Assembly: GCA_002733205.1 (NCBI GenBank)
Contig: NVUW01000002.1
Coordinates: forward strand, 496,001-560,000
DNA from: Thalassobium sp.
GTDB taxonomy: Bacteria; Pseudomonadota; Gammaproteobacteria; Pseudomonadales; Oceanobacteraceae
Direction: 5' to 3'
Length of the DNA stretch: 64,000 nucleotides
In this document: positions 10,669 through 36,563 of the stretch, piece by piece
Position numbering within the stretch: position 1 is the stretch's first letter
Layout of the letters: each line of letters starts with the position of its first letter
Position numbers and translations under genes: made by a program
The notes under the pieces: generated by a model
Databases searched by the model: none
Seen by the model: the letters and a program-made list of their open reading frames with translations, nothing else
What the model was told of the DNA's origin: nothing

Positions 10669-10736
10669 AGTGTGTGGGAGGTCAGTCAGCGGTGCAACCG
10701 TCAGTGGTGCTGGCTCCGCGTCTGATTCCGCACGGA

Positions 10737-10997
<261 letters not shown>

Positions 10998-11017
10998 TTA
11001 CCTCCGTCAGGGGCGGG

Positions 11018-11636
<619 letters not shown>

Positions 11637-11650
11637 TGACAGGCTGGACG

Positions 11651-13285: not shown

Positions 13286-13314
13286 TGTCAGTTCTCTTTT
13301 TATTCTGTTGTCGC

Positions 13315-13848: not shown

Positions 13849-13859
13849 AAAACGCCTCC

Positions 13860-15302: not shown

Positions 15303-15355
15303 ACTGGGCTCCTGCGGGATAGTTATTATTGGTTTGCTTTCGTCGGTTGGTATTA

Positions 15356-15373
15356 TTAGAGTCATTACTCTAA
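15356..15373. promoter_or_regulatory. Candidate TetR operator between aldehyde dehydrogenase and its regulator
   Basis: TTAGAGT (15356-15362) and ACTCTAA (15367-15373) form a perfect 7-base inverted repeat with a CATT spacer. It lies in the 210-base divergent intergenic region, 54 bases upstream of the dehydrogenase ATG and 140 bases upstream of the TetR gene. The size and symmetry fit a TetR dimer. Confidence 0.5.
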
Positions 15374-15512
15374 AAGGTCAACACTGTAAAAGAATGATGG
15401 CGAAGATCAACCTTCTGCGCATGGCATTTGCGGCCAATGTGTGTGAGCCTGCGCCTGACAACATGACGCCCGGCGTTTTATCAGCAATACGGGCAGCGAC
15501 AGCGGAAACGGC

Positions 15513-16211
15513 ATGAGTACTAAAGAACGAATTCTCGACGCCAGCCTGCAGCTCTTTAATGAGCAGGGTGAGCGCAAGGTAACGACCAATCATATTGCCG
15601 CCCATCTGGCGATTTCGCCGGGCAATCTGTATTACCACTTCAAGAATAAGCAGGCGATTATTTTTGCCCTGTTTGAGCGCTATGAAAGCCGGGTGCTGGA
15701 TATTCTGCAGGTGCCGGAAGAGCGTGCCCTGCAACCACTGGATAAACTGCGTTATCTGCAGGACATTTTTACCGGTCTGTGGGATTACCGCTTTATGCAC
15801 CGCGATATGGAGCATCTGCTGCTGGCCGATGCCGAATTGCATGCCCGCTACCGTGCGTTTTTCCGTCTGTGTCTGAATCAGGTGCAGCAGATTTTCCGCG
15901 GCCTGAATGCTGCCGGTATTATCCGCATCAGTGAAGACGATATCGCCAGTCTGGCGCTGAACACCTGGATTGTGGTGACGTCCTGGTTCTCTTTCCTGCG
16001 CTGCAACCTGTTGAGCGCCGATGTTGACGCCATTTCGCCGGAACTGTTACGTGGCGGCATTTATCAGGTCTTCACGCTGGAGCGGCCGTATCTGACCGAC
16101 GAGTACCGCGAAGCGATGAATCAGCTGCAACAGCAGTTTGTGCCGCGCCCGCAGTGGCTGGAAACGGAAGAAAGCGCAGAAGAAAGCGCAGAAAAGGAGC
16201 AAAGGGGATAA
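15513..16211 (+). CDS. TetR-family transcriptional regulator
   Basis: The 232-residue protein has an N-terminal TetR DNA-binding domain: KERILDASLQLFNEQG, then TTNHIAAHLAISPGNLYYHFKNK, the classic helix-turn-helix with Y-x-H-F-x-N-K. The C-terminal ligand domain (60-210) is helical and ends in an unusual acid tail (EESAEESAEKE). Divergent transcription from the aldehyde dehydrogenase operon and the palindrome between them suggest it represses that operon, with an alcohol, aldehyde or acyl ligand. The equivalent gene in Pseudomonas is PA0367. Confidence 0.9.
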   Translation: MSTKERILDASLQLFNEQGERKVTTNHIAAHLAISPGNLYYHFKNKQAIIFALFERYESRVLDILQVPEERALQPLDKLRYLQDIFTGLWDYRFMHRDMEHLLLADAELHARYRAFFRLCLNQVQQIFRGLNAAGIIRISEDDIASLALNTWIVVTSWFSFLRCNLLSADVDAISPELLRGGIYQVFTLERPYLTDEYREAMNQLQQQFVPRPQWLETEESAEESAEKEQRG

Positions 16212-16239
16212 GCCGCAGGGGCAAACAACAGGGATAAAC

Positions 16240-16277
16240 GATAACGGCCGGATTCGTTATCGATTCCGGCCGTTATC
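16240..16277. terminator. Perfect 13-base inverted repeat between convergent genes
   Basis: GATAACGGCCGGA pairs with TCCGGCCGTTATC around a 12-base loop. It sits between the ends of the TetR gene and the convergent 16306 gene. T runs are weak, so terminator function is inferred from position. Confidence 0.65.
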
Positions 16278-16305
16278 AAAGAGCAGACGCTGGTGTCAGC
16301 TTGCT

Positions 16306-17109
16306 TCAGAAATTACGCAGATAGGCGTTGATAAAATCAGCCTGATTCGGTGCGTCTTTTTCGGTCATAAAGGTCAGGTTGTTGCCCTTGCGGCGCAGTT
16401 TAAGCTTGTCGCTGAACTGACACTGCACGCCCTGCAGCGCGGCCAGGTCAGCTTTGAATTCTGAATGGCGTTCACAGATGCGCGCCATTTCGCCGGCAAC
16501 CTGTCCGCAGTATGCGCCAATGCTGATACCTTTCAGCAGGTCATCATTCACGCTGGCCCAGTCAATCGCGGTTTTAACCGTGCCGCCGCAGGCTTTGCTG
16601 GCTTCACTGTCTTTTTCGCTGAGCATGGCTTCGACGTTTTTAACGTGCTTATCACGGTTAAACAACGCCAGCTTTTTCTGGATGCCTTCGGTGGTCTGCT
16701 GGGTATAGCGTTGCACAATCCCTTCGCGTGTCGGGTCGGTTTCACCCTGCTCAATGGTGCCGACATTCAGGCCGTCACGGCCATTGTCTGGCAGGAATAC
16801 CTGAAAGTATTCATTGCCCCAGTTAACGCCTTTCAGGATCAGGGTTTTCATTTGGCCATCGTAGGCAATACGGTAGGCAACACCACCCTGACCACGGTTC
16901 TGCATTTCGGCCAGGAACACGACACGGTCGACGGCATGGTTAACGCCGGATACTTGTATCAGTGCTTTCTCTTCGTTTTTCAGTGGCAGGATGATGGCTT
17001 TCAGTGACTGAGCGCCGCCCAGATAAACCGGGTAATCAACCACTTCAACTGCCTGAGCGCGAAACGTGGCCAGCAGGAAGAGCGTGATAACAGAGAGAGT
17101 TTTCAGCAT
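16306..17109 (-). CDS. Secreted protein of unknown function
   Basis: A 267-residue protein with a signal peptide (MLKTLSVITLFLLATFRAQA, cleavage near residue 20). The mature N-terminal part is beta-rich (VVDYPVYLGG, ALIQVSG, VVFLAEM). The C-terminal half has Cys residues at SKACGGTV, GAYCGQV, ARICERH and VQCQFSD, four cysteines that could make two disulfides in the periplasm. I do not recognise a family. It is a single gene; 165 bases separate it from rsmD, including a small GCCTTCTG/CAGAAGGC hairpin at 17175-17193. Confidence 0.75.
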   Translation of the reverse strand: MLKTLSVITLFLLATFRAQAVEVVDYPVYLGGAQSLKAIILPLKNEEKALIQVSGVNHAVDRVVFLAEMQNRGQGGVAYRIAYDGQMKTLILKGVNWGNEYFQVFLPDNGRDGLNVGTIEQGETDPTREGIVQRYTQQTTEGIQKKLALFNRDKHVKNVEAMLSEKDSEASKACGGTVKTAIDWASVNDDLLKGISIGAYCGQVAGEMARICERHSEFKADLAALQGVQCQFSDKLKLRRKGNNLTFMTEKDAPNQADFINAYLRNF

Positions 17110-17274
17110 GGATATGTCCTTATTGATGAGCTGAATGGATGCGCCAAACAGATGCGTTGAGTCAGCGGAATTCAGCCTTCTGTTACAGAAGGCGGCGCTA
17201 CTTTAACATCGCTGGCGGGCGAATTCCTTAGCGCTTTTGATAACTCAATCAAAAAACAATAAAAATCAGGCGCC

Positions 17275-17829
17275 TTAATCCGCCACAATTTCAAACAGGC
17301 GGAAACAGAACTCTTTGGTTTCTTTGTGCTTAATCTCTTGCCAGTCAGCAGGAAATAACGGTTGCAGGCGCACTTCATGCTCGACGTACACCAGCGCACC
17401 GGGCAGCAGGCGCAGGGCGTCGATGGCAGGCTGTAGCAGGTCTTTGCCGAACGGCGGATCGAGAAACACCAGATCAAAAGGCTCCGGATTCTGTTGCAGC
17501 CACAGTAATGCATCACCGGCCCAGACCTGAGCATTGGCCGCCTGCAGAATTTCCAGATTTTCACGCAGCTGCAGTGCAGCGGTGGGGTGCTTTTCCAGGA
17601 AGACTACTTCTTTTGCCCCCCGGGACAGGGCTTCAAAGCCCAGCGCGCCGGAACCGGCGAAGGCATCCAGCGCACGGGCACCGGCAATATCATGTTGCAG
17701 CCAGTTGAAGACGGTTTCACGCACCCGGTCCATGGTCGGACGCAGGCCGTCGACGGCCGGGAAGCGCAGGCGGCGGGAGCGCCACTGACCACCAATAATA
17801 CGCAGTTGCTGGGATTGGATTTTACTCAT
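17275..17829 (-). CDS. rsmD: 16S rRNA (guanine(966)-N(2))-methyltransferase
   Basis: RsmD methylates G966 of 16S rRNA during 30S assembly. The 184-residue protein has RIIGGQWRSRRL near the N-terminus, the RPTMDRVRETVFNWL signature, the SAM-binding strand ALDAFAGSGALGFEALSRG and the catalytic DPPF motif in LVFLDPPFGK. The start at 17829 gives the standard length. It is divergent from ftsY, separated from it by the unknown 17837 gene, which ends 7 bases before rsmD starts. Confidence 0.95.
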   Translation of the reverse strand: MSKIQSQQLRIIGGQWRSRRLRFPAVDGLRPTMDRVRETVFNWLQHDIAGARALDAFAGSGALGFEALSRGAKEVVFLEKHPTAALQLRENLEILQAANAQVWAGDALLWLQQNPEPFDLVFLDPPFGKDLLQPAIDALRLLPGALVYVEHEVRLQPLFPADWQEIKHKETKEFCFRLFEIVAD

Positions 17830-17836
17830 GAGTTCT

Positions 17837-18655
17837 TCAGTGCTGGCTGGGTTCTCGCTGCGGCTGAGCGGCTGACAAACACTGCAGCAGTTCAGCGGGA
17901 GCGGTTTTCTGGCTCTGGCCGAGCTGATGGTACAGCTGGCGGTAGAGGTCTTCCGGCGGGCGATAGTAGGCAAGATCGGCCTGAATGTCGATCTGACTGA
18001 GGTCATTTTGCCAGTTCTGGCGCAGTATCCGGGTCTGTTCAAGCCGCCATTCGGCCCAGGCGCTGCGGGTTGGGCCGGTTGCGTCGGGGCGAGTGAGCAG
18101 GGCGAGGCTGTCTGGAAGGCTATAAAGAGCGGCCCAGGCATGTGCCGGTTGTAGCGCTGACGCAGGTAGCAACGCTTGAGTCAGCCACAATGCGCCCGCC
18201 AGATGTTCTGCGATACAGGTCGGCAGTGGCCCGCCAGCAGGTTTCAGCGGCTGCAGGTTCAGGGTACGAATAACATAGGCGGCCATGGTTTTCTGGCTGA
18301 GTTCATCCCATGGACCGGCAATCAGCAGCACAGCCTGGCTTCCTTTCAGGCTGCCGGGCAATTGTTGTTTCAGGTGGTCGGGCCAGTCAGTTGCAGGCAG
18401 TTTCAGTGTGTATAAAGCGCTCGCGCTGCGCAGCGCCAGATGACCGCCATTGATATCCCCCGCCCTACGCAGATACACCGCGATGCCTTCCAGGCTCTGC
18501 CAGTAACGCCAGCCAGCGTCAGCCAGTAATGGTTGTGTCAGAGCGGGCAGCGGTTGCTCCTCTTCATCTTTGAATCCCAGATGGATCCAGCTGATCAGCA
18601 GCAGGCAGACAATAATCAGAACGCTGAGAGTGGTACGGCTGAATCCGTGCAGCAT
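17837..18655 (-). CDS. Single-pass membrane protein of unknown function (possible degenerate M16-like)
   Basis: The 272-residue product has one N-terminal membrane segment (about 10-26, SVLIIVCLLLISW) and a large, probably periplasmic, remainder. It sits exactly where Pseudomonas has two M16-type peptidase genes between rsmD and ftsY. Two stretches are loosely M16-like: an N-terminal strand pair around GIAVYLRRAG, and AVLLIAGPWDELSQKTMAAY, which recalls the conserved strand-plus-helix of M16 domains. No HxxEH zinc motif is present. I treat that link as speculative. Start 18655 is chosen for its position before the membrane segment; 18697 is an alternative. It probably shares a transcript with rsmD. 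Confidence 0.65.
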   Translation of the reverse strand: MLHGFSRTTLSVLIIVCLLLISWIHLGFKDEEEQPLPALTQPLLADAGWRYWQSLEGIAVYLRRAGDINGGHLALRSASALYTLKLPATDWPDHLKQQLPGSLKGSQAVLLIAGPWDELSQKTMAAYVIRTLNLQPLKPAGGPLPTCIAEHLAGALWLTQALLPASALQPAHAWAALYSLPDSLALLTRPDATGPTRSAWAEWRLEQTRILRQNWQNDLSQIDIQADLAYYRPPEDLYRQLYHQLGQSQKTAPAELLQCLSAAQPQREPSQH

Positions 18656-18909
18656 AGGACGGTCATCTCTGTTTCGACGGGGTAATCCGGGACGCATGAC
18701 GGCGTGCCAACATGCCCTGAATGCGTGGTGAAATTTATCCACCAACGATAACATCCGGCGGAATGATGGTAGGATAGCGCCCTGACGCCGGGTGCGGAAA
18801 TAAAGCGATGGGCTTTGGCCCGATTGCACCGTTTCGCAAACCCCCGCAGCATTCTGCAACACGGCGCCTGACGAACATCCATTATTGTCCCTGATGTCTG
18901 AGTACCCCG

Positions 18910-20178
18910 ATGTTTGATTTTTTTAAGCGCAAAAAAAACACCCCTGACGCTGCCAAAGAAACCCCGGCGGCGGAATCCGAATCTCCAGAACAAACCCTGC
19001 CTGACAGTGGCGAAGCCGTTGCTGAAGACGGAGCGGTTAACGCAGACGCTGTTACTGCGGAGGCTGTCGTTGACGTTGAAGCCGTTGCTGAGGCTGACGT
19101 CATCGCTGAGCCCGAATCAGAGCCAGAACCCGAACAACCCGTCGCAGAAGACGTTGTTCCGCTGGCAGAGCAGAACCTGTCGGCCGCACCTGTTCAGGCC
19201 CAGACCCAGGACAAGCCGCTGGATAATCAGGGTACGAAAAAGCCCGGCTTCTTCAGCCGTATCCGTCAGGGCCTGAGCAAAACCCGCAGCGGTCTGAGCG
19301 ACGGCCTGGCGAATCTGCTGTTGGGCAAAAAAGAAATTGATGACGATCTGCTGGAAGAGCTGGAAACCCAGCTGATTATGGCCGACGTCGGTGTGGAGGC
19401 GACCCAGGACATCATGAGTCGCCTGACCACACGTGTCAGCCGTAAAGAACTGAAAGACTCAGATGCGCTCTATAACGCCTTAATCGGTGAGCTGCAGGAT
19501 ACGCTGGGCGGTGTGCAGGCTCCGCTGGTGATCGACAGCAGCAAGAAGCCCTATGTGATTCTGATGGTTGGCATCAATGGCGTGGGTAAAACCACCACCA
19601 TCGGCAAGCTGGCCAAACAATTCCAGAATGATGGTAAGAGCGTCATGTTGGCGGCGGGTGATACCTTCCGTGCCGCCGCTGTCGAGCAGTTGCAGGTCTG
19701 GGGTGAGCGCAATAATGTGCCGGTGATTGCCCAGCATACCGGCGCTGATTCAGCCTCCGTGCTGTACGATGCGCTGGAAGCGGCCAAAGCCCGTAAAGTC
19801 GATGTTCTTATCGCCGATACCGCCGGTCGTCTGCACACCAAAGACAATCTGATGCAGGAACTGGAAAAAGTCGTACGGGTGATGAAAAAACTCGATGACA
19901 GCGCCCCGCACGAAGTGATGCTGGTGCTGGATGCCGGTACCGGTCAGAACGCGATCAATCAGGCGCGTCAGTTCCAGCAGTCGGTCGGTGTTACCGGTCT
20001 GACGCTGACCAAGCTGGATGGCACGGCCAAAGGCGGTATTATCTTTGCGCTGGCGCGTCATTTTGGTCTGCCGGTGCGTTATATCGGTGTGGGCGAAGGC
20101 ATCGATGATTTGCGTCCGTTTAATGCCGAAGAGTTCACCCGTGCATTGTTTCAGCGTGAGCAGAACGACAACGGCTGA
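18910..20178 (+). CDS. ftsY: Signal recognition particle receptor FtsY
   Basis: FtsY is the SRP receptor GTPase that delivers ribosomes to the Sec translocon. The 422-residue protein has an acidic, Ala/Glu-rich A domain (about 12-105), then the N domain and the G domain. GTPase motifs are GINGVGKTTT (221-230), DTFRAAA, DTAGRLHT (303-310) and TKLDGTAKGG. The N-terminal FDFFKRKK is the membrane-targeting amphipath seen in many FtsY proteins. It starts the ftsY-ftsE-ftsX-rpoH block. Confidence 0.97.
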   Translation: MFDFFKRKKNTPDAAKETPAAESESPEQTLPDSGEAVAEDGAVNADAVTAEAVVDVEAVAEADVIAEPESEPEPEQPVAEDVVPLAEQNLSAAPVQAQTQDKPLDNQGTKKPGFFSRIRQGLSKTRSGLSDGLANLLLGKKEIDDDLLEELETQLIMADVGVEATQDIMSRLTTRVSRKELKDSDALYNALIGELQDTLGGVQAPLVIDSSKKPYVILMVGINGVGKTTTIGKLAKQFQNDGKSVMLAAGDTFRAAAVEQLQVWGERNNVPVIAQHTGADSASVLYDALEAAKARKVDVLIADTAGRLHTKDNLMQELEKVVRVMKKLDDSAPHEVMLVLDAGTGQNAINQARQFQQSVGVTGLTLTKLDGTAKGGIIFALARHFGLPVRYIGVGEGIDDLRPFNAEEFTRALFQREQNDNG

Positions 20179-26627: not shown

Positions 26628-27515
26628 ATGCGCGCTGCAGATCTGATTCACCTGCTGAGCCAGTACGATCCTGATATGGAAGTACCGGTGTCTTTCTCGC
26701 ACAGTGCCGTGGACGAAACGCCACTGCCTAAAATCACCACCTGCACCAGCAATGAACGCAGCCGCTGCTACGAGACTCTTGTCGAGTTGGCGGAAGACGG
26801 CATGCTGGTGGTTAATGCCGGTGGTCATATCACCTATATGAATCCGTATCTGGTTCGTCTCTGCGGCTATGCTCCGGCAGAGCTGGCCGGGCGACCATTA
26901 ACCGAACTGATGCCGCGCGACGATGCAGAAATATTACGTCAGCGTTTATTCAGCATGCACGGCAGCAGCCGTTTTACTATCCGTCTCATCAGCCGCAGCC
27001 GCGATATGCATTGGGTGCAGATATCTGCCACCGCAATCCCCAGCAGCGATGGCTGTTTTCGTGGCTGCATGATGACCGTTACCGATTTATCACGGCAGCA
27101 AATTCATCTGCAGGGTATGGGCGATCAGCAATTATTAGGCGATAAAGTTGAACGTATTCACGATCAGCTGGAACGGCTGAAAGTATTACGCACACATTTG
27201 CTCAGTGAGCTGGATGATATGCGGCAGTTACCGCGAGTCGATGCCACACCGTTCTGGCATCAGGGGCGTTATCTGTATCTGATCGAACCGCAGAAAAATG
27301 GTAAACGCAAACGCCAGTATGTCGGTTCCGATCCGGAGAAGGTTAAACAGGCACTGTCATCCATGCGTCGCCAGCAACGTTTTTTACAGGTGCAGCAGGA
27401 ACTGGCGCAGATCGATCATCAAATACGCAATGCAACGTTCAAACTGGACAGTTTCCTTTGGGACCTCGCTCAGGTGCCGCCCGATCTCCACCGTTTATTA
27501 CCTGCCTCTGCCTGA
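26628..27515 (+). CDS. PAS-domain protein with a C-terminal DUF6788-like segment
   Basis: The 295-residue soluble protein has a short N-terminal part (DLIHLLSQYDPDMEVPVSF), a PAS domain at about 47-155 (LAEDGMLVVNAGGHITYMN, YAPAELAGRPLTELM, MTVTDLSRQQ), a helical coiled-coil stretch (165-200), and a basic C-terminal module at 209-275 with FWHQGRYLYLIE, GKRKRQYVGS and a helix. That last module recalls the small DUF6788 domains, often thought to bind nucleic acid; this is memory-based. No kinase, cyclase or HTH output domain is present. GGAGG stands 8 bases before the ATG. It lies 76 bases after ppx, same strand, and is followed by a terminator. Confidence 0.8.
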   Translation: MRAADLIHLLSQYDPDMEVPVSFSHSAVDETPLPKITTCTSNERSRCYETLVELAEDGMLVVNAGGHITYMNPYLVRLCGYAPAELAGRPLTELMPRDDAEILRQRLFSMHGSSRFTIRLISRSRDMHWVQISATAIPSSDGCFRGCMMTVTDLSRQQIHLQGMGDQQLLGDKVERIHDQLERLKVLRTHLLSELDDMRQLPRVDATPFWHQGRYLYLIEPQKNGKRKRQYVGSDPEKVKQALSSMRRQQRFLQVQQELAQIDHQIRNATFKLDSFLWDLAQVPPDLHRLLPASA

Positions 27516-27530
27516 AAAAAATACAGGATA

Positions 27531-27561
27531 AAAAAAACAGCGCTCATGGCGCTGTTTTTTT
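27531..27561. terminator. Rho-independent terminator after the PAS gene
   Basis: ACAGCGC and GCGCTGT pair around TCATG, flanked by A7 and T8 runs. It isolates the downstream operon from ppx and the PAS gene. Confidence 0.92.
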
Positions 27562-27667: not shown

Positions 27668-27755
27668 TTGCATTTTTTTCACGCTTTTTATTATCAGAAA
27701 ACTCAGTGGTTTTTTCATGACAGCAATTAAGAATCGGTGGTTGTGCTGTCATGAA
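27668..27755 (+). promoter_or_regulatory. Control region of the adenylyltransferase-exporter operon, with a 12-base inverted repeat
   Basis: The 347-base stretch 27562-27908 holds no convincing gene. TTCATGACAGCA (27714-27725) and TGCTGTCATGAA (27744-27755) are a perfect 12-base inverted repeat; arm centres are 30 bases apart, about three helical turns, so two dimers or a looped dimer could bind one DNA face. A weak promoter, TTGCAT (27668-27673) and TATTAT (27689-27694) with a 15-base spacer, lies just upstream, so a bound protein would cover the start region. A 10-base palindrome CACGATCGTG is at 27649-27658. AGGAGGGG at 27898-27905 is the strong Shine-Dalgarno of the first gene. Confidence 0.55.
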
Positions 27756-27908
27756 TGCCCTCCCTAGCATCCGGGCTCCGCAGGCTTGAGAAGAACGGCG
27801 CTTCGGAAATTAAAGCGGAAAACATTGGTTTTTACGCATCCGGACCGAAACCGGCAGTTCTGCGGAATTAATTTTCAGGATGATATGGCAGCTTGTCAGG
27901 AGGGGATT

Positions 27909-29672
27909 ATGGCAGAGCAAAATCCGGGATGGTCGGGAGACGCCCAAAGTTTTTATCACGAATTTACGCTGCGTAATGCAGGTTTTATCAGCGACAAAGA
28001 ACAGCAGCGTTTACGACAGGCACACATCCTCATCGCCGGCTGTGGTTCAACCGGTGGAAGCGTTATTGAAGTACTGGTGCGCAGTGGCGCAGAACAGCTG
28101 GCATTGGCAGATAACGGCAGTTATGAACTGAATAACGCTAACCGCCAGAATATGGTGCTGACCGATGTTGGCCGCTCAAAGGTTGATGTATTCCACGAGC
28201 GCATGAGTCAGATCAATCCGTTTGTGCAGATCGACGGCTATGCCAACGGCATTACACCGGACAATGTGGATGCATTGGTTGAATGGGCTGATGTGATTAT
28301 TGATGCCGTCGATGTTACCGGACGTTCGGGTCTGGAAATGAAATTCCTGCTGCACGAAGTGGCGCACCGCAATCAAAAAGCGGTTATCTGCGGTTATGAC
28401 ATGGCGGCGGCGCAGTATGTGCCGGTGTTCGATTACCGCGATGGCACATTGCCATTAATGGCCGGCCTGCTGAATGCCGAAGACGTGGCAACACTGGATC
28501 CGCTGCAGGCTTGCGCACGATTAATTCCGGATGAATTTATTCCGCTGGAAATGTTCGACGAACTGGCCCGCCATCAGCAGGGTAAGGATTACACCTCGCA
28601 GCTGTGTCTGGCGGCGAATTTATTTGGTGTGCTGGGTTCGACACTGGTGCTCGACATTCTGAATGAGCGGGCGGTGGAAACCGACAACTACGTTGATCTG
28701 TGGAGCCTGATGCGCAAACCTCAGGCCAGTGATGACCAGGCGCGTGACGAAGCCGCCGTGAGCGAATTACGCAGCGGCCTGCGTGCCTGGGCTAACGGCC
28801 CGGGCGGTGACAGTGATCCGTTCTTCCTTGAACGGTCATTGCGCCATTACCAACTGCCGCTGATGCCGGAGTTGCACAACTACCGCGATCAGCTGCTGAC
28901 CGAACGTGCCGGCATCTCGGCCTTTGCCATTCCCCATGAGCAACTGGCCGGGCCGCTGGCACGCCAACTGTTACGTTTTGCCTTTGTGCATTACGCCCGC
29001 GTTGGCTTTATTAACCCCGATCAGGCGGCACGTCGCCTGCTGCATCATGAACCACTGAGCAATCTCAGCCCGCAGGATGTGCATCTGGTGCTGATTGATA
29101 CTCAAAGTAGCCAGTTGCTGGGTTACTCGACGCTGAAAGCGCCGCTGTCCGATAACCTGCCGTTCTCCAGCACCGAGCGTCCGCACTATGGTGTTGAGCA
29201 GGCTTTTGGCCGTGATCTGTTCGCTGGGGTTGATGAGTTACAGGGAATTCCGGTTGCCGCGGTGCGCGAAATTGGCCGGGTAACCAAAGCCGAGCTGGAT
29301 GATCCGGTACTGAATGCGCGGGTCGGTATTATGCTGCTGAGCGCTTATCGCCAGGTGGTATCCGATAGCCGCTATGGCATCAGCGCCTTTGTCGGCGATG
29401 GCGAGAAAAACGTGACTCTGCGCAACCTCACCTTCTTTGGTTTTAACCCGCAATTACTGCCGGCGCGTGAATCCTGCCTGCCGGCCGACCACCTCTATCA
29501 CCACCGTTATGTTGGCCGCGATGTGCGTCCGTTCTGGCTGTTGCTGGCGGATATCAATCAGGCGCGCGCCGATGAAGTAGAAGCATTGCTTGATCTGGAT
29601 GACAACGCACTGCTGGCTGCCTTAAACGCAAGCCGCAGTAACGCAGCAAAGGAATTGGAGGCTCAGTTATGA
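27909..29672 (+). CDS. ThiF/E1-like adenylyltransferase fused to a GNAT/autoinducer-synthase-like domain
   Basis: The 587-residue protein has two parts. Residues about 15-265 are a ThiF/MoeB/E1-type adenylation domain: IAGCGSTGGSVIEVL (41-55, nucleotide loop), LADNGSYELNNANRQN (66-81, with the Asn/Arg that bind ATP), DVGRSK, and IIDAVDVTG (130-138). No CxxC zinc pairs are seen. Residues about 300-580 look like a GNAT-fold acyltransferase: LVLIDTQSSQLLGYSTLK (393-410), VREIGRVTK (452-460), which matches the E-x-x-R strand of acyl-homoserine-lactone-synthase/FeeM-type enzymes, and VTLRNLTFFGFNP (502-514). The C-terminal call is by eye. Known E1-like enzymes activate a carboxylate as an adenylate, and FeeM-type enzymes move an acyl chain to an amine. 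The last four bases overlap the acyl-CoA dehydrogenase start. Confidence 0.8.
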   Translation: MAEQNPGWSGDAQSFYHEFTLRNAGFISDKEQQRLRQAHILIAGCGSTGGSVIEVLVRSGAEQLALADNGSYELNNANRQNMVLTDVGRSKVDVFHERMSQINPFVQIDGYANGITPDNVDALVEWADVIIDAVDVTGRSGLEMKFLLHEVAHRNQKAVICGYDMAAAQYVPVFDYRDGTLPLMAGLLNAEDVATLDPLQACARLIPDEFIPLEMFDELARHQQGKDYTSQLCLAANLFGVLGSTLVLDILNERAVETDNYVDLWSLMRKPQASDDQARDEAAVSELRSGLRAWANGPGGDSDPFFLERSLRHYQLPLMPELHNYRDQLLTERAGISAFAIPHEQLAGPLARQLLRFAFVHYARVGFINPDQAARRLLHHEPLSNLSPQDVHLVLIDTQSSQLLGYSTLKAPLSDNLPFSSTERPHYGVEQAFGRDLFAGVDELQGIPVAAVREIGRVTKAELDDPVLNARVGIMLLSAYRQVVSDSRYGISAFVGDGEKNVTLRNLTFFGFNPQLLPARESCLPADHLYHHRYVGRDVRPFWLLLADINQARADEVEALLDLDDNALLAALNASRSNAAKELEAQL

Positions 29673-30919
29673 AATCGGTATGGAACGAACAACAGCAGGA
29701 AATCCGGGATTTTTACGAACAGGTCGCCCGTGAGCGGGTACGTCCGAGTGCCGCCTCGCGTGATGTCACGCTGACCTTTGACCGTCAGATCTGGCGCGAC
29801 CTGGGTGCCAGCGGGCTGTTTGGCCTGCATATGCCCGAAGAGTTTGGTGGCCGTGGTCTGGGCCTGCGCGAGTTTACTGCCGCGCTGGAGGGTTTTTCCC
29901 GTGGTAGTCAGGACATGGGCGTACTGGTGTCCTTTGTCGCTCAGGTGGGCCTGGTGCAGGCCGGATTGCTCAGCTACGGCACGGAAGAGCAAAAGCAGCG
30001 CTGGTTGCCGGGCCTGATCCGCGGTGAATTACTGGGCTCATTTGCCATTACCGAACAGGGCTGTGGCTCCGATGTCCGTGCCATGAAATTAAGCGCGACA
30101 CAGGAGCTGAACGGCTTCCGCATTAATGGTCAGAAGTGGAACATCACCAATGCGCCGCAGGCGGACGTGGTAATGACCTTTGCCCATGTCGAAGGTGCCG
30201 GTGATAAATCGGTGACCTGTTTTATTACCGGTACCGATGTTCCGGGTCTGGAGCGCAGTGAGCCATTTGAGCTGTTGGGCAACCGTGGCACGCCAATTGG
30301 TGCGTTTAATTTTAACGATGTGCTGGTGCCGGAATCCGCGGTGGTGGGTGGCGTGGGTGGTGGTCTGAATGTGCTGTATTTCGCCTTCCTGGTCGAGCGT
30401 GTACTGACCGGCCTGGTGATTACCGGCTGCATGGAACCGCTGGTGGAAGACTGCCTGCGTTACAGTCAGGAGCGTCTGGCATTTGGCCGTCCGATTGGTG
30501 AGAACCAGTACATTCAGGGGCAGATCGTCGATATGTATTGCCAGGTGGAAGTGCTGCGCAGCGTTCTGCTGCGGGCGATGGACAGTATGGAGCAGGGTGT
30601 CGATTGCTCCAGTCTGGCGTCAATGGTGAAGATGATCGCCACCGAAAGTCTGCACGAAGCCTGCCTGAACGCCATTCGTATTCACGGTAATTCCGGTTAT
30701 CGCCGCGACAAGTATTTTGAGCGTTTGCTGCGCGATTCCATCGGTGTGTTCTTTGCCGGAGGCACCATCGAAATTCACCGCCATGTGATCTGGACCAATC
30801 TGGTTGAAGGCTTCCGTAAGGGCGAGCGCATGCGCGATGGCCTGAATCTCGGCGTCTATCAGAACCAGAATCCGGCCACCACCGCCTTCAGCCAGCCAGC
30901 TGAGGAGGCCATTGCATGA
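29669..30919 (+). CDS. Acyl-CoA dehydrogenase-family flavoprotein
   Basis: The 416-residue protein has the ACAD fold: an N-terminal helical domain with GLFGLHMPEEFGGRGLG, the FAD/substrate beta domain with AITEQGCGSDV and KWNITNAP, and the C-terminal helical domain with QERLAFGRPIGENQYIQ. The usual medium-chain catalytic Glu before GT is replaced (AGGTIEIHR), but Glu243 in LVERVL sits where isovaleryl- and long-chain enzymes keep theirs. So a 2,3-dehydrogenation of an acyl thioester remains plausible. ATGA overlaps couple it to both neighbours, tying it to the export genes rather than to ordinary beta-oxidation. Confidence 0.9.
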   Translation: MKSVWNEQQQEIRDFYEQVARERVRPSAASRDVTLTFDRQIWRDLGASGLFGLHMPEEFGGRGLGLREFTAALEGFSRGSQDMGVLVSFVAQVGLVQAGLLSYGTEEQKQRWLPGLIRGELLGSFAITEQGCGSDVRAMKLSATQELNGFRINGQKWNITNAPQADVVMTFAHVEGAGDKSVTCFITGTDVPGLERSEPFELLGNRGTPIGAFNFNDVLVPESAVVGGVGGGLNVLYFAFLVERVLTGLVITGCMEPLVEDCLRYSQERLAFGRPIGENQYIQGQIVDMYCQVEVLRSVLLRAMDSMEQGVDCSSLASMVKMIATESLHEACLNAIRIHGNSGYRRDKYFERLLRDSIGVFFAGGTIEIHRHVIWTNLVEGFRKGERMRDGLNLGVYQNQNPATTAFSQPAEEAIA

Positions 30920-33477
30920 ATGCCGTAATGCAATTATTTACCGGGGTGCAGCGTCACCCCTGGCTGATGATGTTGGGTCTGTTGCTGGTTACGGTGCTGG
31001 CGTTAGGCGCTGCCGGCCAGCTGCAGATTAACAGCACGCCGTACATGATCGATAACAGCCACCCCAGCCGGGTGGCCGATCACGATACCAAGCGCCTGTT
31101 CTCCAACACCGGTGAGCAGGCCTTTGTCGCCATCGATAATCCGCAAGGCAATGTGTTCAACGCCCGCAGTCTGGCGACGGTGCAGGAGTTAAGCCGCACC
31201 TTTGAACGCATGTTGCTGATCAGTGAAGCCGACAGTCAGCGTCTAACCGCGCTGGCGGAAGACGGCGTGCTGACCATGCCGCAGGCCAATGCGCTGCTGC
31301 AGGATGGGCTGACACCGCAGGATATTCCGGCGCTCAAACGTCTGGCGCAGCAGGAAAGCATCAGTACGCTGGATAAAGCCTGGCTGGAGAATCTGGCGGT
31401 GCGCCTGCGTCCGGTTAAACGGGTGCGCAGTCTGGCGCGCATGGAGCACATCGAAGCCTTTACCGGCGGTCTGGATGTACGCCCGCTGATGAAAACCCTG
31501 CCGCAGAACGACGCCGAACGGCAGGCGCTGCGTGAGGCCGTGCTGGCCAATCCGATGTTTATTAACGGCCTGGTATCGCCCAAAGGTAACGCCACCACCA
31601 TTCAGGTGGAGTTTAATATCGACGAAGATGATTCGCCGTCCATGTTGCTGGCTTACGGTGAAATCAGCCGCATCATCAACGATGTGAGCGCGCGCGAAGG
31701 CTTCAGCGACCGCGTTTACCTGAGCGGCCCACCAATGATCGCGGCGCAGACCGCCACCAGTATGGAGCAGGATAACCAGACGCTGCTGCCGGGTGTGTTG
31801 CTGGTGATTATCGTCGTGCTGCTGCTCAGCTTTGGCCGTTTGCAGGGCGTGGTTGCGCCGCTGATGATCGCCGTGATTGCGCTGTTCTGGACCTTGGGCA
31901 CGATGGCGGCGTTCGGCGTGAAGCAGAACATCGTTACCTCCATGCTGCCGGTGTTCATTATTGCCATCGCGGTCTGTGACGCCATTCACTTCCTCGCTAC
32001 TTACTACCGTCTGCTACCGGCTAATCCCGACCGTGCGGCCCGCACTCAGGCGGCGTCGGATGCGTTGCGCAAACTGTTCTGGCCGATGCTGGTGACGACC
32101 ATCACCACCATGGCAGGCTTCTTCGCTCTGAGCTGGACCGAAGTGATCTTTATCCGCGAGTTCGGCATCTTCGTCGGTCTGGGGGTTATGTTCGCCTGGA
32201 TCGTTACCATGCTGTTTTTACCGGCGCTGGTGATTCTGTGGAAAGCACCACCACCGCGTTTCGGCTTATTGGTCAGCACTCTGGTCAGCCGTTTTATGGG
32301 CCTGCTCGGACGCGTGGCTGGTCATGGTAAAGCGGTGGTCATGGCGGTTGTGGTACTGATGGCCGGTGGTCTGCTTTACACCCAGCAGAACCTGACGGTG
32401 GATAACCAGGTGATCGGTTACTTCGAAGCTGACAGCCGTATCCGTCAGGATGACGCCGCCATTAACGCCAACTTCGGCGGCTCGACCGTGGTCAGCTTTC
32501 TGCTGGAAAGCAAAGAGGTGGATGCCTTCAAACAGCCGCAGGTGATGCTGGCGGTGGAAAAACTGCAACAGCAGCTGAACAACGATCCATTGGTGGGCTT
32601 TACCATTTCGCCGGTGAACTTTATTGAGCGCATGCATCAGGTACTGAGCGCTGGTAAAGGTGAGACCAGCGGCAGTGCCGCCGATTACCGTCTGCCGTCA
32701 GATCTGACCCAGCCGATGCTGGCGCAGTATTACCTGCTGTACGAAAACGCCAACGGTCAGGATTTGTTTGATGTGGTTGACCGCCGCTTCTCCAATGGCC
32801 GCATTCTCACCGTGCTACACAGTGACCGCTCATCCGAAGTGGGCGGCGTGATCGAGCGCGTGATGAACGAAGCACGCAACGTGCTGCCGGCCGGGGTCAG
32901 TATCCGCGCCGCCGGTTATGGTGAAATTCTGGTGTCTACCACCGATGCTGTGGTCGGCGGTCAGATCCAGAGTCTGCTGCTGGCGGTGGTACTGATTGCG
33001 CTGCTGGTGGTCGCCATTCTGCGTTCGCTGCGCCTCGGTTTGCTGGCGTTGCTACCGCTGCTGTTTACGCTGGTGGGTGTGTTTACCCTGATGGCGCTGA
33101 CCGGCACCGCACTGGATATCGGCACCTCCATTATTGCGGCCATCTCCTTTGGTATCGGTATCGACTACGCCATTCATACCATTGCCGCGCTGCGTCTCAG
33201 TAAAGGTCAGGATCATGCCGAGCTGGTGGCCAATGCGCTGCAGTACTGCGGTAAACCGATTCTGATTAACACTCTGGCGCTGGGCTTTGGCTTCCTGGTG
33301 CTGACGCTGTCGGGTTATCAGGCACTGGTGAACCTGGGCTACTTTATCTCGCTCACCATGCTGTTCAGTGCGCTGTTTGCGTTGCTGGTGTTGCCGGCCT
33401 TCCATCGCCCTGATGCACCACAGGCGACGGTTGCTGAACGTGCCGACGAGCCGCAGGCGGAGCCGGCCAATGCCTAG
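30916..33477 (+). CDS. MMPL/RND-family lipid exporter-like membrane protein
   Basis: The 853-residue protein has the RND arrangement: membrane segment 1 (about 15-34), first periplasmic domain (35-288), five segments (290-445), second periplasmic domain (about 490-685), and six more segments. TM-region acidic residues typical of proton-coupled MMPL proteins occur in AVCDAIHFLATYY (353-365) and GIGIDYAIHT near 755. Relatives such as HpnN move hopanoids and MmpL proteins move lipids, with no TolC partner. No AcrA-like adaptor is present. It starts in an ATGA overlap with the acyl-CoA dehydrogenase and ends overlapping the next gene by 8 bases. Confidence 0.92.
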   Translation: MNAVMQLFTGVQRHPWLMMLGLLLVTVLALGAAGQLQINSTPYMIDNSHPSRVADHDTKRLFSNTGEQAFVAIDNPQGNVFNARSLATVQELSRTFERMLLISEADSQRLTALAEDGVLTMPQANALLQDGLTPQDIPALKRLAQQESISTLDKAWLENLAVRLRPVKRVRSLARMEHIEAFTGGLDVRPLMKTLPQNDAERQALREAVLANPMFINGLVSPKGNATTIQVEFNIDEDDSPSMLLAYGEISRIINDVSAREGFSDRVYLSGPPMIAAQTATSMEQDNQTLLPGVLLVIIVVLLLSFGRLQGVVAPLMIAVIALFWTLGTMAAFGVKQNIVTSMLPVFIIAIAVCDAIHFLATYYRLLPANPDRAARTQAASDALRKLFWPMLVTTITTMAGFFALSWTEVIFIREFGIFVGLGVMFAWIVTMLFLPALVILWKAPPPRFGLLVSTLVSRFMGLLGRVAGHGKAVVMAVVVLMAGGLLYTQQNLTVDNQVIGYFEADSRIRQDDAAINANFGGSTVVSFLLESKEVDAFKQPQVMLAVEKLQQQLNNDPLVGFTISPVNFIERMHQVLSAGKGETSGSAADYRLPSDLTQPMLAQYYLLYENANGQDLFDVVDRRFSNGRILTVLHSDRSSEVGGVIERVMNEARNVLPAGVSIRAAGYGEILVSTTDAVVGGQIQSLLLAVVLIALLVVAILRSLRLGLLALLPLLFTLVGVFTLMALTGTALDIGTSIIAAISFGIGIDYAIHTIAALRLSKGQDHAELVANALQYCGKPILINTLALGFGFLVLTLSGYQALVNLGYFISLTMLFSALFALLVLPAFHRPDAPQATVAERADEPQAEPANA

Positions 33478-34450
33478 GGTGCTGAACACGCTGCTGTTGG
33501 CGTGTGTGCTGTCGGCAACGACAGCACAGGCGGCCCAACCGCTGACCGAACACGACGAATGGCAGGTGATCAGTTTATACCCGCCGCACGGCGTGTATCA
33601 GGCGGAGTTGTTGCCGCAACTGGTGACGGCGGTTGAAGGCTTATGGCAGGTGCAGGGCAGTGACGGTGAGCCGTTGCTGCGCAGCGTCGACAGCCTGGCC
33701 AGCATGAACGTGATCGTCGCCCAGCAGGACGAAGTGCGCTTCCGCCGCATTATCGAAAAAGGCGAACTGAACGCCGCCGGTATGCAGCGCCTGCAGGCGC
33801 TGGTGGAAGAGCATCCTCTGGTGCAGCGGCGGCTGGTGTCGGCCGATGCTCAGGCCACGCACCTGTGGCTGCGGCTGAAAAAACCGGCCACTGCGGAGGG
33901 TTTGCAGCAGCTGAGTGATCATCTGGCGGCCAGTCTGAATGCCGCCGGTCATCAGTGTGTGGTCGCGGCAAACGCGCGTGGTCCATTGGCTGGCCGCTAT
34001 ATGACGCAATGGCAGTACGATACGCCGCAACGCGCCGATGGCGTGGCCGCGTTGCAGGCGCTGGCGACGGCACAGCAGCAACTGAGTAACGCACCGGGGG
34101 CGCCGGACAGCGAACACGGGCGTAATTATTCGGCGCTGAATCTGCTGTCGTATCTGGGCGGCATTCTGGGTGGCGAGCTGCTCGATGCCAATGGCCTGCC
34201 GCAAAGCAACGCGGCACTGGCGCAGATGTACATGATGGCCGAGAGCCTGCGCAGCCGCGATCTGCAGGCGCTGGCGCGTCCGGATTTCCGCCAGTTACAG
34301 CTGGTGGTGCTGGGCCATAAAGCACCGCTGAATGCGCCGCCTGTTTCCAACTATCAACTTACCCATACCAGCATCTGGCAGGCGTCGGCGCGCGATTATC
34401 GCGTGCTCGATTGTCGTGCGCAGGGGCTGGTGACGTCGGAGAACGAATAA
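33470..34450 (+). CDS. Stand-alone periplasmic protein resembling an MMPL periplasmic domain
   Basis: The 326-residue product has a signal peptide (cleavage near residue 22, TAQAAQ) and no further membrane segment. Residues 72-176 can be aligned by eye with the first periplasmic domain of the preceding exporter: SVDSLASMNVI against VRSLARMEHI, RRLVSADAQATHLWLRL against NGLVSPKGNATTIQVEF, and ARGPLAGRYM against SGPPMIAAQT. It therefore looks like a detached porter-domain module, perhaps pairing with or gating the exporter. Residues 200-310 are Ala/Leu-rich and unassigned. It overlaps the exporter by 8 bases and the next gene by one base (TAATG). Confidence 0.8.
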   Translation: MPRVLNTLLLACVLSATTAQAAQPLTEHDEWQVISLYPPHGVYQAELLPQLVTAVEGLWQVQGSDGEPLLRSVDSLASMNVIVAQQDEVRFRRIIEKGELNAAGMQRLQALVEEHPLVQRRLVSADAQATHLWLRLKKPATAEGLQQLSDHLAASLNAAGHQCVVAANARGPLAGRYMTQWQYDTPQRADGVAALQALATAQQQLSNAPGAPDSEHGRNYSALNLLSYLGGILGGELLDANGLPQSNAALAQMYMMAESLRSRDLQALARPDFRQLQLVVLGHKAPLNAPPVSNYQLTHTSIWQASARDYRVLDCRAQGLVTSENE

Positions 34451-35253
34451 TGAAATTACTGCTGAAAAGTGCAGCGCTTACGCTGTTGAGCCTGACCATG
34501 CTGCCGGCCTTTGCCGTCAGTGAAAAAAGCATTAAACCGGAAGTGCTGCTGGAACAGGTACGTGATCGTGACGACGGCGATGACCGTCGTTCACGCATGA
34601 TTCTGGAACAGACCATGAGTGATGGTTTTGTGCGTGAGCGCGAATTGTTAATGCTGGAAAAAAAATTCGGTGCCGAGCGTAAAGCCGTGCTGTATTTCAC
34701 CGCCCCGGCGGATACTGCCGGTACCGGCATTCTGATGTTCAGCTACGAAGAAGCCAGCGGCAAAGACGATGATCAGTGGCTGTATCTGCCCGCGCTGCGT
34801 CAGTCACGCCGTATTGCGACTAACTCGAAAGAAGGCCCGTTTCTCGGTACCGATTTTTCCTTCGCCGATATCGAACGCCTGCGTGTGGATGATTATCTCT
34901 ATGAAGATCAGGGCACGGTAGAAATAAACGGTCGCACGCTGCACAAAATTGCCGCACATACGGCCAATGGTCTGGAAAATCCGCGTACCGGATACAGCCA
35001 ACGCGAAATTTTTGTTGATGCTGAGCGGCAGCTGATTATGCGCGATGAGTTTTATCGTGAAGGCCGTCATATCAAAACCTTTGAAGTCACCGGCCTGAAA
35101 GAAATTGATGGCTACTGGACCGTGACCGAAGCGGTGATGACCAATCATGTGGAAGGGGGCTTTACCCGCTTATTGCGCAAAGAAACAACCTACAACGTTG
35201 GCATTGCCGAACGGCTGTTTAATGAGCGTACGTTGCGCAGCGGGATTCAGTAA
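34450..35253 (+). CDS. LolA-like outer-membrane lipoprotein-sorting family protein
   Basis: The 267-residue periplasmic protein has a signal peptide (cleavage near residue 20, AFAVS). The body is a LolA-like half-barrel of the type annotated as outer membrane lipoprotein-sorting protein (PF17131-like): strands ERELLMLEKKFG, RKAVLYFTAPADTAGTGILMFSYEE, DDQWLYLPALRQSRRI, TDFSFADIERL and TVTEAVMTNH. That DQWLYLPAL...R-I-x-x-x-x-K-x-G-x-F-x-G-T-D-F-S pattern is the family hallmark. Such proteins often accompany MMPL exporters and barrels and are thought to carry lipids across the periplasm. TAATG overlaps join it to both neighbours. Confidence 0.9.
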   Translation: MKLLLKSAALTLLSLTMLPAFAVSEKSIKPEVLLEQVRDRDDGDDRRSRMILEQTMSDGFVRERELLMLEKKFGAERKAVLYFTAPADTAGTGILMFSYEEASGKDDDQWLYLPALRQSRRIATNSKEGPFLGTDFSFADIERLRVDDYLYEDQGTVEINGRTLHKIAAHTANGLENPRTGYSQREIFVDAERQLIMRDEFYREGRHIKTFEVTGLKEIDGYWTVTEAVMTNHVEGGFTRLLRKETTYNVGIAERLFNERTLRSGIQ

Positions 35254-36464
35254 TGGTTCGGATTCAGCTTTTGTTGGCGCTGTTGTTGGTTAATGGTGCA
35301 GCGCTTGCTGCACCGTCCTTCAGCGGTAAAGGTCATGCAGAAATACGTCAACAGGAACGCGCCGGTAACGAAGCCGGCGACGATCTTGGGCAGCGATATG
35401 AAGGTTTGCTGGAAGGGCAGATAAACAACGGCCGGTTAAAAACCAACGCTATTTTAATGGGGCGTTACCGCAGCCAGTATGACGATGCCGAAGACAAGGT
35501 ACGGGATGAAATGCGCAGTGATGCGGAACTGCGTGAACTCTACCTGACCTGGTCGGCCGATCGTTTTGAAATCCGTGCCGGTAAGCAGCAACAGGCCTGG
35601 GGGCGGGCAGATTATTTTCGCATTGTGGATGTCTGGAACCCACTCGACCTGCGCGAATTTCTTTTACCTTATTTCGATAATTATTCACTTGGACGGCAGC
35701 CGCGCGGCATGTTGATTACCGATTACTTCGGTGACACCTGGGAGCAGCAATTAATTATTGCTGCGCAGCGTAAAACGACCCGCCTGGCACCGGCCGGCAG
35801 TGACTTTGCGGCCAATGGTATGCCCGCGACTTTACCCGCAGTCAACGAAGAAGGCAGTGGGGTGGATATCGGCTGGCGCGGAAAAATATTCTGGTCGGGC
35901 AACGATATCGAATTGTACGCTTTTCATGGCTATCATGCGGATGAAATGCTGACCTTTGAAAATGCGCAGCTGGTACGCGAACAGCCAGAGCGCGACATGG
36001 TTGGCACATCACTGGCACGCCCCATGGGAGACTGGGTTTTACGCACCGACGCCGCACATTATTGGCGTGAAGGGCGCCAGACAGCCAGCGGTATTGAAGA
36101 CAGCAGCCGCACCTCGGCACTGCTTGGCTTTGACCGGGTGGAAAATGAATGGACCTGGAACCTGCAGCTGGCGACGACCCACTGGTACGACGAAGAAAGT
36201 AATCATGATGATGTTTGGGAATCGTCAGTGTCAGTGGAAAAAAACTGGAGCCGATACCGCTTAACCACCGGACTGTTATGGCTGGTTAACTGGGTCGACG
36301 ACAGCAGCCAGTTATGGCGCGCAACCGTAAACTATGAATTTTTACCGCAGTGGAAAGTCGGCTTCGCGGCTGTTGCCTTTGATGGTAAAGACGATACGCA
36401 GTTTGGTCAGTTTGATAATCAGGATCGTTTGATGCTGACTTTAAGGCGGGATTTTTCGCTGTAA
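35253..36464 (+). CDS. Outer-membrane beta-barrel protein, DUF1302/Wzi-like
   Basis: The 403-residue protein has a signal peptide (cleavage near residue 19, ALAAP) and alternating strands throughout. RELYLTWSADRFEIRAGKQ then WGRADYFRIVDVWNPLDLRE (residues about 90-130) is the signature of DUF1302-type barrels, which occur next to LolA-like and MMPL genes in several marine and soil bacteria. The last strand reads RLMLTLRRDFSL, ending in Leu rather than Phe. It is the final gene of the six-gene operon, followed after 46 bases by a strong terminator. Its inferred role is to receive or release the exported product at the outer membrane. Confidence 0.88.
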   Translation: MVRIQLLLALLLVNGAALAAPSFSGKGHAEIRQQERAGNEAGDDLGQRYEGLLEGQINNGRLKTNAILMGRYRSQYDDAEDKVRDEMRSDAELRELYLTWSADRFEIRAGKQQQAWGRADYFRIVDVWNPLDLREFLLPYFDNYSLGRQPRGMLITDYFGDTWEQQLIIAAQRKTTRLAPAGSDFAANGMPATLPAVNEEGSGVDIGWRGKIFWSGNDIELYAFHGYHADEMLTFENAQLVREQPERDMVGTSLARPMGDWVLRTDAAHYWREGRQTASGIEDSSRTSALLGFDRVENEWTWNLQLATTHWYDEESNHDDVWESSVSVEKNWSRYRLTTGLLWLVNWVDDSSQLWRATVNYEFLPQWKVGFAAVAFDGKDDTQFGQFDNQDRLMLTLRRDFSL

Positions 36465-36510
36465 CTTTTACGGTAATTTCCTCTGTAACAGCTTCTGTAA
36501 ACCAGGGCAT

Positions 36511-36543
36511 AAAAAAAGAGCTTCAACAGAAGCTCTTTTTTTA
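36511..36543. terminator. Bidirectional terminator between the export operon and ppk
   Basis: GAGCTTC and GAAGCTC pair around AACA, with A7 on the left and T8 on the right. It serves both convergent transcripts. Confidence 0.93.
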
Positions 36544-36563
36544 TCAATGCCAAACGGAATTGC

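Follow-up and report, generated by a model that had tools for sequence, protein, structure and literature searches.

In the acyl-oxazolone pathways, an N-acyl amino acid synthase (NAS), a ThiF-family cyclase and a flavin-dependent desaturase act together, according to the available accounts (PMC12856293, PMC10404671, PMC12479983). The tyz genes of one such pathway adjoin mmpL9, a location that the authors call intriguing while leaving transport or export open in the part of the report available (PMC10404671). A different kind of system, AmeABCD of Castellaniella defragrans, is described as combining an HAE3 pump with a DUF1302 protein and a LolA/DUF1329 periplasmic protein (PMC6394551). Here we describe a six-gene operon of Thalassobium sp. 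that recalls both. It lies in a stretch of 64,000 nucleotides (contig NVUW01000002.1, positions 496,001 to 560,000 of the forward strand), hereafter the window. An initial annotation had proposed that the operon makes an acylated or lipid-like molecule in the cytoplasm and carries it through every envelope layer, and that no described system is like it. The latter claim does not hold, since AmeABCD resembles the export half and the acyl-oxazolone pathways resemble the synthetic logic. For the six-gene unit as a whole, we found no description in the literature, where few of the queries combined terms able to catch its composition. Our tentative reading is that the unit serves to synthesise a cyclised N-acyl amino acid and to send it out of the cell.

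Conservation of the six-gene unit and its upstream region

The six genes lie on the + strand and overlap successively by 4, 4, 8, 1 and 1 bases, and the coordinates reproduce every overlap listed in the initial annotation. In order, their products match the Pfam families ThiF, acyl-CoA dehydrogenase and MMPL, no family above the cut-off for gene 4, LolA_like and DUF1302. The pump encoded by gene 3 matches PF03176 (1.4e-31) and also TIGR00921 (5.3e-47), the latter under its curated cut-off. The gene 5 protein matches PF17131 (7e-47) and DUF1329 (7.6e-8) and has a hydrophobic leader at residues 3-21, and the gene 6 protein matches PF06980 (2.9e-14) with a hydrophobic leader at residues 1-25. No membrane fusion protein of the AcrA family and no TolC-type channel had a Pfam match among the six genes. 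This result, together with the conserved gene order, agrees with the earlier statement that synthesis, here probable, and export are joined in one unit with no AcrA or TolC partner.

A genome scan with gene 1 returned 12 relatives, two of Thalassolituus type and ten from Pseudomonas, and all six genes were present in the same order in every one of them; gene 1 shares 94% identity with its Thalassolituus alkanivorans counterpart. The complete unit was also found in two other genera of the window's family (loci L059, L060 and L062) as well as in one more Pseudomonas-family genome (L065), while in L061 the contig end cuts it inside gene 3. Three further loci (L044, L063 and L064) appear to repeat L036, L032 and L031 and were not counted as extra. 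Four more matches to the C-terminal domain of gene 1 occur in the Pseudomonas family (genomes G747, G779, G814 and G832). This domain was detected in 3 of the 398 genomes of a phylum sample, the window's own genome included, in 8 of 44 genomes of the window's family and in 6 of 298 genomes of the family of G061. No gene 1 relative was found on plasmids at E 1e-30. Given its patchy presence in two families, the distribution suggests horizontal spread of the unit.

Genes 3 and 4 overlap by 8 bases in all nine loci measured (the window, L059, L060, L062, L063, L064, L065, L039 and L125), the start codon in each being the nearest one upstream of the match, as picked by the analyst. From this constancy we infer that the two genes are translationally coupled. 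This conservation of gene order and of the 8-base overlap is more than chance.

A gene for a PAS-domain protein accompanies the operon. It adjoins it in all 12 relatives of the genome scan, as two reading frames in L032, and in seven of seven further loci, where it is divergent in four (L059-L062); elsewhere it can run in the direction of the operon. The C-terminal region of this protein was detected in seven of the eight family genomes that carry the gene 1 C-terminal domain and in a single one (G576) of the 36 that do not. Within the Pseudomonas family, all six genomes with the gene 1 domain encode it, and one other genome, of 296 searched, gave a weak match (27% identity).

Between the PAS gene and the operon, a palindrome ATGnC...G[TC]CAT spanning exactly 36 bp was found in 18 of 19 upstream regions, whereas 300 dinucleotide shuffles produced it in 0.04 regions on average and never in more than one; the pattern and span were fixed after inspection of the upstream regions, and the 18 sites are not independent because ten of them come from related Pseudomonas. 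The exact palindrome occurs once in the window's genome (86.9% complete), and matches with two mismatches are at background level. On the plain reading, the PAS protein and the 36-bp palindrome are predicted to be a dedicated regulator-operator pair, the protein presumably binding the site. The sole region of the 19 lacking the palindrome is that of G104 (L043), where the PAS gene is missing too; a looser form of the palindrome has one match in this locus, at 6348, distant from the operon start. A LuxR-family gene lies 3' of gene 6 in G104 (L043, 6861-7589, - strand), and a swap of regulators, LuxR-family for PAS, is possible in this genome.

The feature coordinates are collected in Table 1. 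Hairpins with a T run were located where the initial annotation had placed flanking terminators (27531 and 36511); the one after gene 6 is missing from a consensus terminator scan and was seen in a separate hairpin analysis. The inverted repeat and the strong Shine-Dalgarno sequence reported at the front of the operon were recovered as well, and AGGAGGGG is kept in an alignment of three Thalassolituus-type upstream regions. Rfam gave no match in the window at gathering scores. In the Thalassolituus and Pseudomonas regions inspected, a short stretch ATGCCC(GCC)TC(C/T)CTA follows the palindrome (window 27755-27785; also L031, L032, L033, L036 and L039). Read by eye, it forms in L033 and L039 an 11-residue leader whose end overlaps the gene 1 start codon; it may be a leader peptide or a promoter element.

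Table 1. Coordinates of the six-gene unit and of the features around it, as positions in the window
Feature	Position	Strand	Description
PAS gene	26628-27515	+	PAS-domain protein, 295 aa; Pfam PAS 2.9e-14; C-terminal region without a family
Intrinsic terminator	27531-27561	+	In the gap between PAS gene and operon; stem 13-14 bp, T run
Inverted repeat	27714-27755		TTCATGACAGCA-N18-TGCTGTCATGAA; holds the operator-like palindrome
Shine-Dalgarno sequence of gene 1	27898-27905	+	AGGAGGGG, 5' of the first ATG
Gene 1	27909-29672	+	E1/ThiF domain fused to a GNAT-like domain
Gene 2	29669-30919	+	Acyl-CoA dehydrogenase-family flavoenzyme, isovaleryl-CoA/prolyl-carrier dehydrogenase type
Gene 3	30916-33477	+	MMPL/HAE3-type RND pump
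Gene 4	33470-34450	+	Resembles both MMPL periplasmic domains; without a transmembrane segment
Gene 5	34450-35253	+	Periplasmic LolA-like protein of lipid-carrier type
Gene 6	35253-36464	+	DUF1302 protein of outer-membrane-barrel type
Terminator hairpin	36509-36544	+	3' of gene 6; perfect 16-nt arms, T run

The products of genes 1, 2 and 4

Three things had escaped the initial annotation: the PAS gene at 26628-27515, the second domain encoded by gene 1, at its C-terminal end, and what kind of protein gene 4 encodes. Residues ~15-280 of the gene 1 protein form an E1/ThiF domain (PF00899, 5.4e-31) that retains the ATP-site residues R22, GCGSTGG, D68, R79, K91, D132 and D135. By sequence, this half comes closest to yeast Tcd1, with AclA-type and TcdA chains next in rank; among its best matches are the tRNA threonylcarbamoyladenosine dehydratases of yeast and bacteria, enzymes that work on a small amino acid group of N-acyl type. 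Foldseek placed AclA (PDB 9egb) at the top of the list for this half (E 3e-9), and a second-look fold aligner gave AclA a Z of 19.9 for the ThiF half, tied with SUMO E1 at 19.3; AclA superposes on this half with a root-mean-square deviation (rmsd) of 5.3 over 204 residues. The solved-fold matches of gene 1 span the ThiF half alone. A ThiF tree of 38 rows put the gene 1 family in a single clade of its own (support 100/98); the tree left out OxzB, TyzB and TrzS and held a partial AclA row, its deep forks are weak (55/54), also at the placement of AclA, and its long branches were flagged by the tool. One of its Oxz-type rows adjoins NAS and nitroreductase genes, and the remaining clades are labelled MoeB- and TcdA-like by motifs alone.

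The second half of the protein (~301-550) is a GNAT-like domain. In the predicted model, with a predicted local distance difference test (pLDDT) score of 65, this half shows the GNAT order of elements, and it has a conserved R-E-I-G-R segment at what we take to be the position of the E-x-R segment of N-acyl-homoserine lactone (AHL) synthases and N-acyl amino acid synthases. Its profile scored 27.6 against a pooled FeeM/OlsB/NAS profile, a weak match, while the highest of 50 column shuffles reached 21.2; the pool was assembled after four single sets had been scored. Because these separate sets had mostly failed, we regard the second half as a likely, not proved, acyltransferase of the AHL-synthase/NAS kind. 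The ThiF part and the GNAT-like part are two adjacent separate genes in G104, which suggests that gene 1 comprises two functional units.

For gene 2, the nearest solved chains are isovaleryl-CoA dehydrogenases, prolyl-carrier dehydrogenases standing lower in the list, and the best NCBIfam models are the prolyl-type PigA and RedW, all under their curated cut-offs. The site of the catalytic glutamate of medium-chain acyl-CoA dehydrogenase is a glycine (AGGT) in all eight aligned sequences, and E243, at the isovaleryl-type position, is invariant in the same number. Presuming that the two glutamate positions have their usual catalytic roles in this protein, gene 2 likely encodes an active dehydrogenase for an unusual acyl substrate.

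Gene 4 resembles the periplasmic domains of the pump encoded next to it. Its N-terminal half matches pump periplasmic domain 1 with E 2.9e-5 and a probability of 74% (0.06 against domain 2) and its C-terminal half matches domain 2 with E 4.4e-5 and 69% (0.41 against domain 1), these E-values coming from single comparisons against the operon's own pump; whole gene 4 compared with the whole pump gave a probability of 40%. No hydrophobic segment, leader included, exceeded the hydropathy threshold, and an N-terminus judged leader-like by eye points to a periplasmic location. The predicted model is poor (pLDDT 54), and Foldseek returned nothing better than E 1.3 with it. In the second-look aligner, MmpL5 stood at the top (rmsd 2.9 over 110, Z 8.2), other MmpL/AcrB-type chains came lower and ribosomal proteins tied at Z 7.7; according to the aligner, values of 7-8 are common for models without a clear match. 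Because ribosomal proteins tie with MmpL5, the fold result alone is insufficient. A search of 194 and 219 genomes with the gene 4 profile gave seven weak places in addition to gene 4 proper. Scans of the open frames at five of them showed an MMPL protein each time; the sixth (L130) seems to be almost identical to one of the five, while the 384-aa frame at the seventh (L134) has no pump-like appearance. Gene 4 thus most likely encodes a counterpart of the two periplasmic domains of the pump that has no membrane part, although this is not proved. We know of no other free-standing double of RND periplasmic domains beside its pump, no literature search having been aimed at it.

What the unit may make and export

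In the pathway that we tentatively favour, the GNAT-like half of the gene 1 protein would acylate an amino acid with a fatty acyl group, and the E1/ThiF half would spend ATP on the carboxylate and close a ring, most likely yielding an acyl-oxazolone. The gene 2 enzyme would take two hydrogens off the carbon acidified by activation or cyclisation. The MMPL pump could then extract the product from the inner membrane, and the LolA-like gene 5 protein and the gene 4 protein may hand it on to the DUF1302 barrel. The PAS protein would sense some cue and work at the 36-bp palindrome before gene 1.

Several observations weigh against this pathway. G70 replaces the second Asp of what we take to be the usual DxD ATP motif, at position 70 of the ThiF half, and the Oxz-type rows of the tree fall in another ThiF clade (12 rows, 100/99). 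The gene 1 model is only middling. The GNAT-like domain scored 14.2 against the FeeM-type set alone (shuffle maximum 19.9, 40 shuffles), 12.8 against the PEP-CTERM-type set (maximum 20.0) and 17.1 against the NAS set (maximum 19.5, 50 shuffles); the OlsB-type set, at 25.6, narrowly exceeded its maximum of 24.4. Pfam and NCBIfam gave this domain only scattered matches of E at least 0.1 in single members, and a PDB profile search with it found no solved chain up to E 10. A nitroreductase-type desaturase had no Pfam match among the six genes. Gene 4 is absent in G104 and is therefore not always needed.

Two further points of this kind concern export. In G576, genes 3-6 stand together with the PAS gene and the palindrome but without genes 1-2 (L125, G576:C52:70000-89900, 9020-19764): genes 3, 5 and 6 are at 60-79% identity and gene 4 at 51%, genes 1-2 do not occur in the 19.9 kb covered, and the C-terminal domain of gene 1 was found nowhere in the genome. 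Between its PAS gene and pump sit genes resembling those for FadL, PLD and strictosidine synthase. The synthetic and export halves are therefore modular, and what is exported may be something other than the product of genes 1-2. Either the biosynthetic genes were lost in G576 or its export unit serves another lipid. The linkage proposed in the initial annotation thus stands in part: where gene 1 exists, unlinked homologues are not the rule, while in G576 the export half and the PAS gene do without genes 1-2. The second point is that, in the available accounts, C12:0-tyrazolone was found in cell pellets and not in supernatants, and tryptazolones were richer inside cells, the acyl-tryptophans being mainly in the medium (PMC10404671, PMC12856293). 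The analogy for export is weakened because the oxazolones stayed mainly with the cells.

Owing to the gene content of G576 and these cell-associated oxazolones, our confidence in the full pathway is slightly lower than it was at first. A bolder reading would comprise dedicated trans-envelope export of a signal or lipid derived from an N-acyl amino acid by cyclisation and desaturation, with a soluble pump-domain double as relay, an acyl-CoA dehydrogenase convergently replacing the nitroreductase, and the PAS protein with a single-site 36-bp operator as on-switch. We consider this bolder version doubtful.

As a competing explanation, one that we hold to be rather unlikely, the product could be an N-acylated lactam or lactone that serves as a signal, as the N-acyl-cyclolysines do. 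Gene 1 would acylate an amino acid whose side chain is reactive and would cyclise it, gene 2 would tailor either the acyl portion or the ring, and the PAS protein (in G104, a LuxR-type protein) would belong to a cell-cell signalling circuit. The modelled order of GNAT elements, which is like that of AHL synthases, is consistent with such a signal, as are the LuxR-family gene after gene 6 in G104 and the dedicated palindrome and PAS gene. AclA, the top Foldseek match of the ThiF half, appears from its name and organism (PDB 9egb) to belong to the N-acyl-cyclolysine system, and the N-acyl-cyclolysines of Bacteroidota are counted among quorum-sensing signals in the available part of a review (PMC13419125). 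However, SUMO E1 rows score level with AclA in the second-look aligner, so that the fold does not fix the product, and a diffusible signal has no obvious need of a four-protein envelope path.

It is unlikely that genes 1-2 modify a lipid already present in the envelope, or that they break down or detoxify an acyl amino acid or an acid derived from hydrocarbons, next to a pump of genes 3-6 that confers tolerance to hydrophobic compounds, as has been proposed for AmeABCD. Thalassolituus alkanivorans, a hydrocarbon-type bacterium as its name indicates, is among the carriers of the unit, and the FadL-, PLD- and strictosidine-synthase-like genes near the export half of G576 would suit such a role. 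In C. defragrans, deletion of ameABCD is reported to have cut monoterpene tolerance (PMC6394551). The tight linkage of the E1-GNAT-type fusion in all 12 loci nevertheless fits synthesis better than breakdown.

That genes 1-2 are ordinary beta-oxidation or cofactor genes beside unrelated export genes, which the initial annotation had named as an alternative, is disfavoured by the isovaleryl-type glutamate found in eight of eight sequences and by the separate E1 clade, and is rejected, since two bacterial families share the gene order and the overlaps, although G576 shows modularity. It is very improbable that gene 1 encodes a RiPP-type (ribosomally synthesised and post-translationally modified peptide) or ubiquitin-like conjugation enzyme acting on a peptide or small protein: such activity is described for ThiF-like enzymes elsewhere (PMC12250964, as far as the account goes), but no small open reading frame of at least 20 aa was common, by eye, to all nine upstream regions compared, and no ubiquitin-like family match was found among the six genes. 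A RiPP precursor was accordingly rejected. An upstream open reading frame of 28-38 aa with common first residues was seen by eye in the three Thalassolituus-type loci only.

Comparison with known systems

With OxzAB, TyzACB and TrzAS, the operon has in common the roles of a ThiF cyclase, a predicted N-acyltransferase of AHL-synthase fold and a flavin desaturase, as far as those pathways are described in the available accounts (PMC10404671, PMC12856293). In family and in most ATP-site residues, the ThiF half agrees with the ThiF-family cyclases of those pathways, and by analogy the three oxazolone-pathway roles can be assigned to genes 1-2. The arrangements differ. In the accounts of Oxz, Tyz and Trz, ThiF is fused to the desaturase, whereas here it is fused to the acyltransferase-like domain; their flavin oxidase, adjacent or fused, is of the nitroreductase superfamily, whereas the candidate here, gene 2, is of the acyl-CoA dehydrogenase superfamily. 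Because the desaturase differs, and because the ThiF domain of the operon stands in a clade other than that of the Oxz-type rows, we do not claim membership of the oxazolone family. The putative thalassotalic and kyonggic acid clusters of Pseudomonadota likewise share an operon-like set of NAS, ThiF and flavin enzyme, the last being a nitroreductase in the available account and an acyl-CoA dehydrogenase in the operon; the main text of that report never uses the word 'transporter' (PMC12479983). AclA (PDB 9egb), the leading though tied fold match of the E1 domain, shows 20-29% identity to it in the alignments.

An MMPL gene beside such enzymes is a further likeness, as tyz stands next to mmpL9 and the operon has its own MMPL pump. 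The operon, unlike the described Oxz, Tyz and Trz clusters, holds the pump together with periplasmic and outer-membrane partners. In another genome, G211 (L120, 1963-10774), a ThiF gene of the Oxz-type clade adjoins a LolA_like gene, with an MMPL gene ~1.4 kb beyond and an NAS-type gene in the stretch. The ThiF-MMPL neighbourhoods of tyz/mmpL9 and G211 are in line with MMPL export of such products.

The export half finds its closest likeness in AmeABCD, whose HAE3 pump, DUF1302 protein and LolA/DUF1329 periplasmic protein are all matched in the operon (PMC6394551). AmeC is described there as COG4447-type, whereas gene 4 has no such Pfam match and is like the MMPL periplasmic domains; the operon, unlike AmeABCD as described, includes biosynthetic genes. 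A second locus in the window's genome (L091, G000:C4, 2-3369) has pump-type and LolA_like genes followed by a 430-aa open reading frame without a Pfam match, and no genes like gene 1 or 2 were found in this 3.5-kb stretch. As AmeABCD and this locus share it, the type of export is not new in itself. The membrane fusion protein and TolC-type channel of an HAE1 tripartite efflux pump are unmatched among the six genes. Elsewhere in the same genome, a LolA_like match lies within a 1088-aa open frame (L101, G000:C22:632005-632568), with frames of ~1090 aa in G596, G598, G602 and G603; this frame is possibly an MMPL-LolA fusion.

The present analysis adds the E1/ThiF-GNAT-like fusion, the isovaleryl-type gene 2, the pump-domain-like gene 4, and the PAS gene and 36-bp palindrome that go with the unit at 18 of the 19 loci. 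The cluster is rare yet tightly conserved, and its product is probably a small molecule made from a fatty acid and an amino acid, related in kind to the recently found mycobacterial lipids. The PAS gene and the conserved 36-bp site offer a handle on the inducer of the unit, and the pump-domain double, if true, would be a new part for lipid transport. Oxazolone-like enzymes, an MMPL pump and envelope partners stand here in one overlapping unit of marine and environmental bacteria, and with enzymes and pump thus joined, the question of export left open for tyz and mmpL9 becomes testable.

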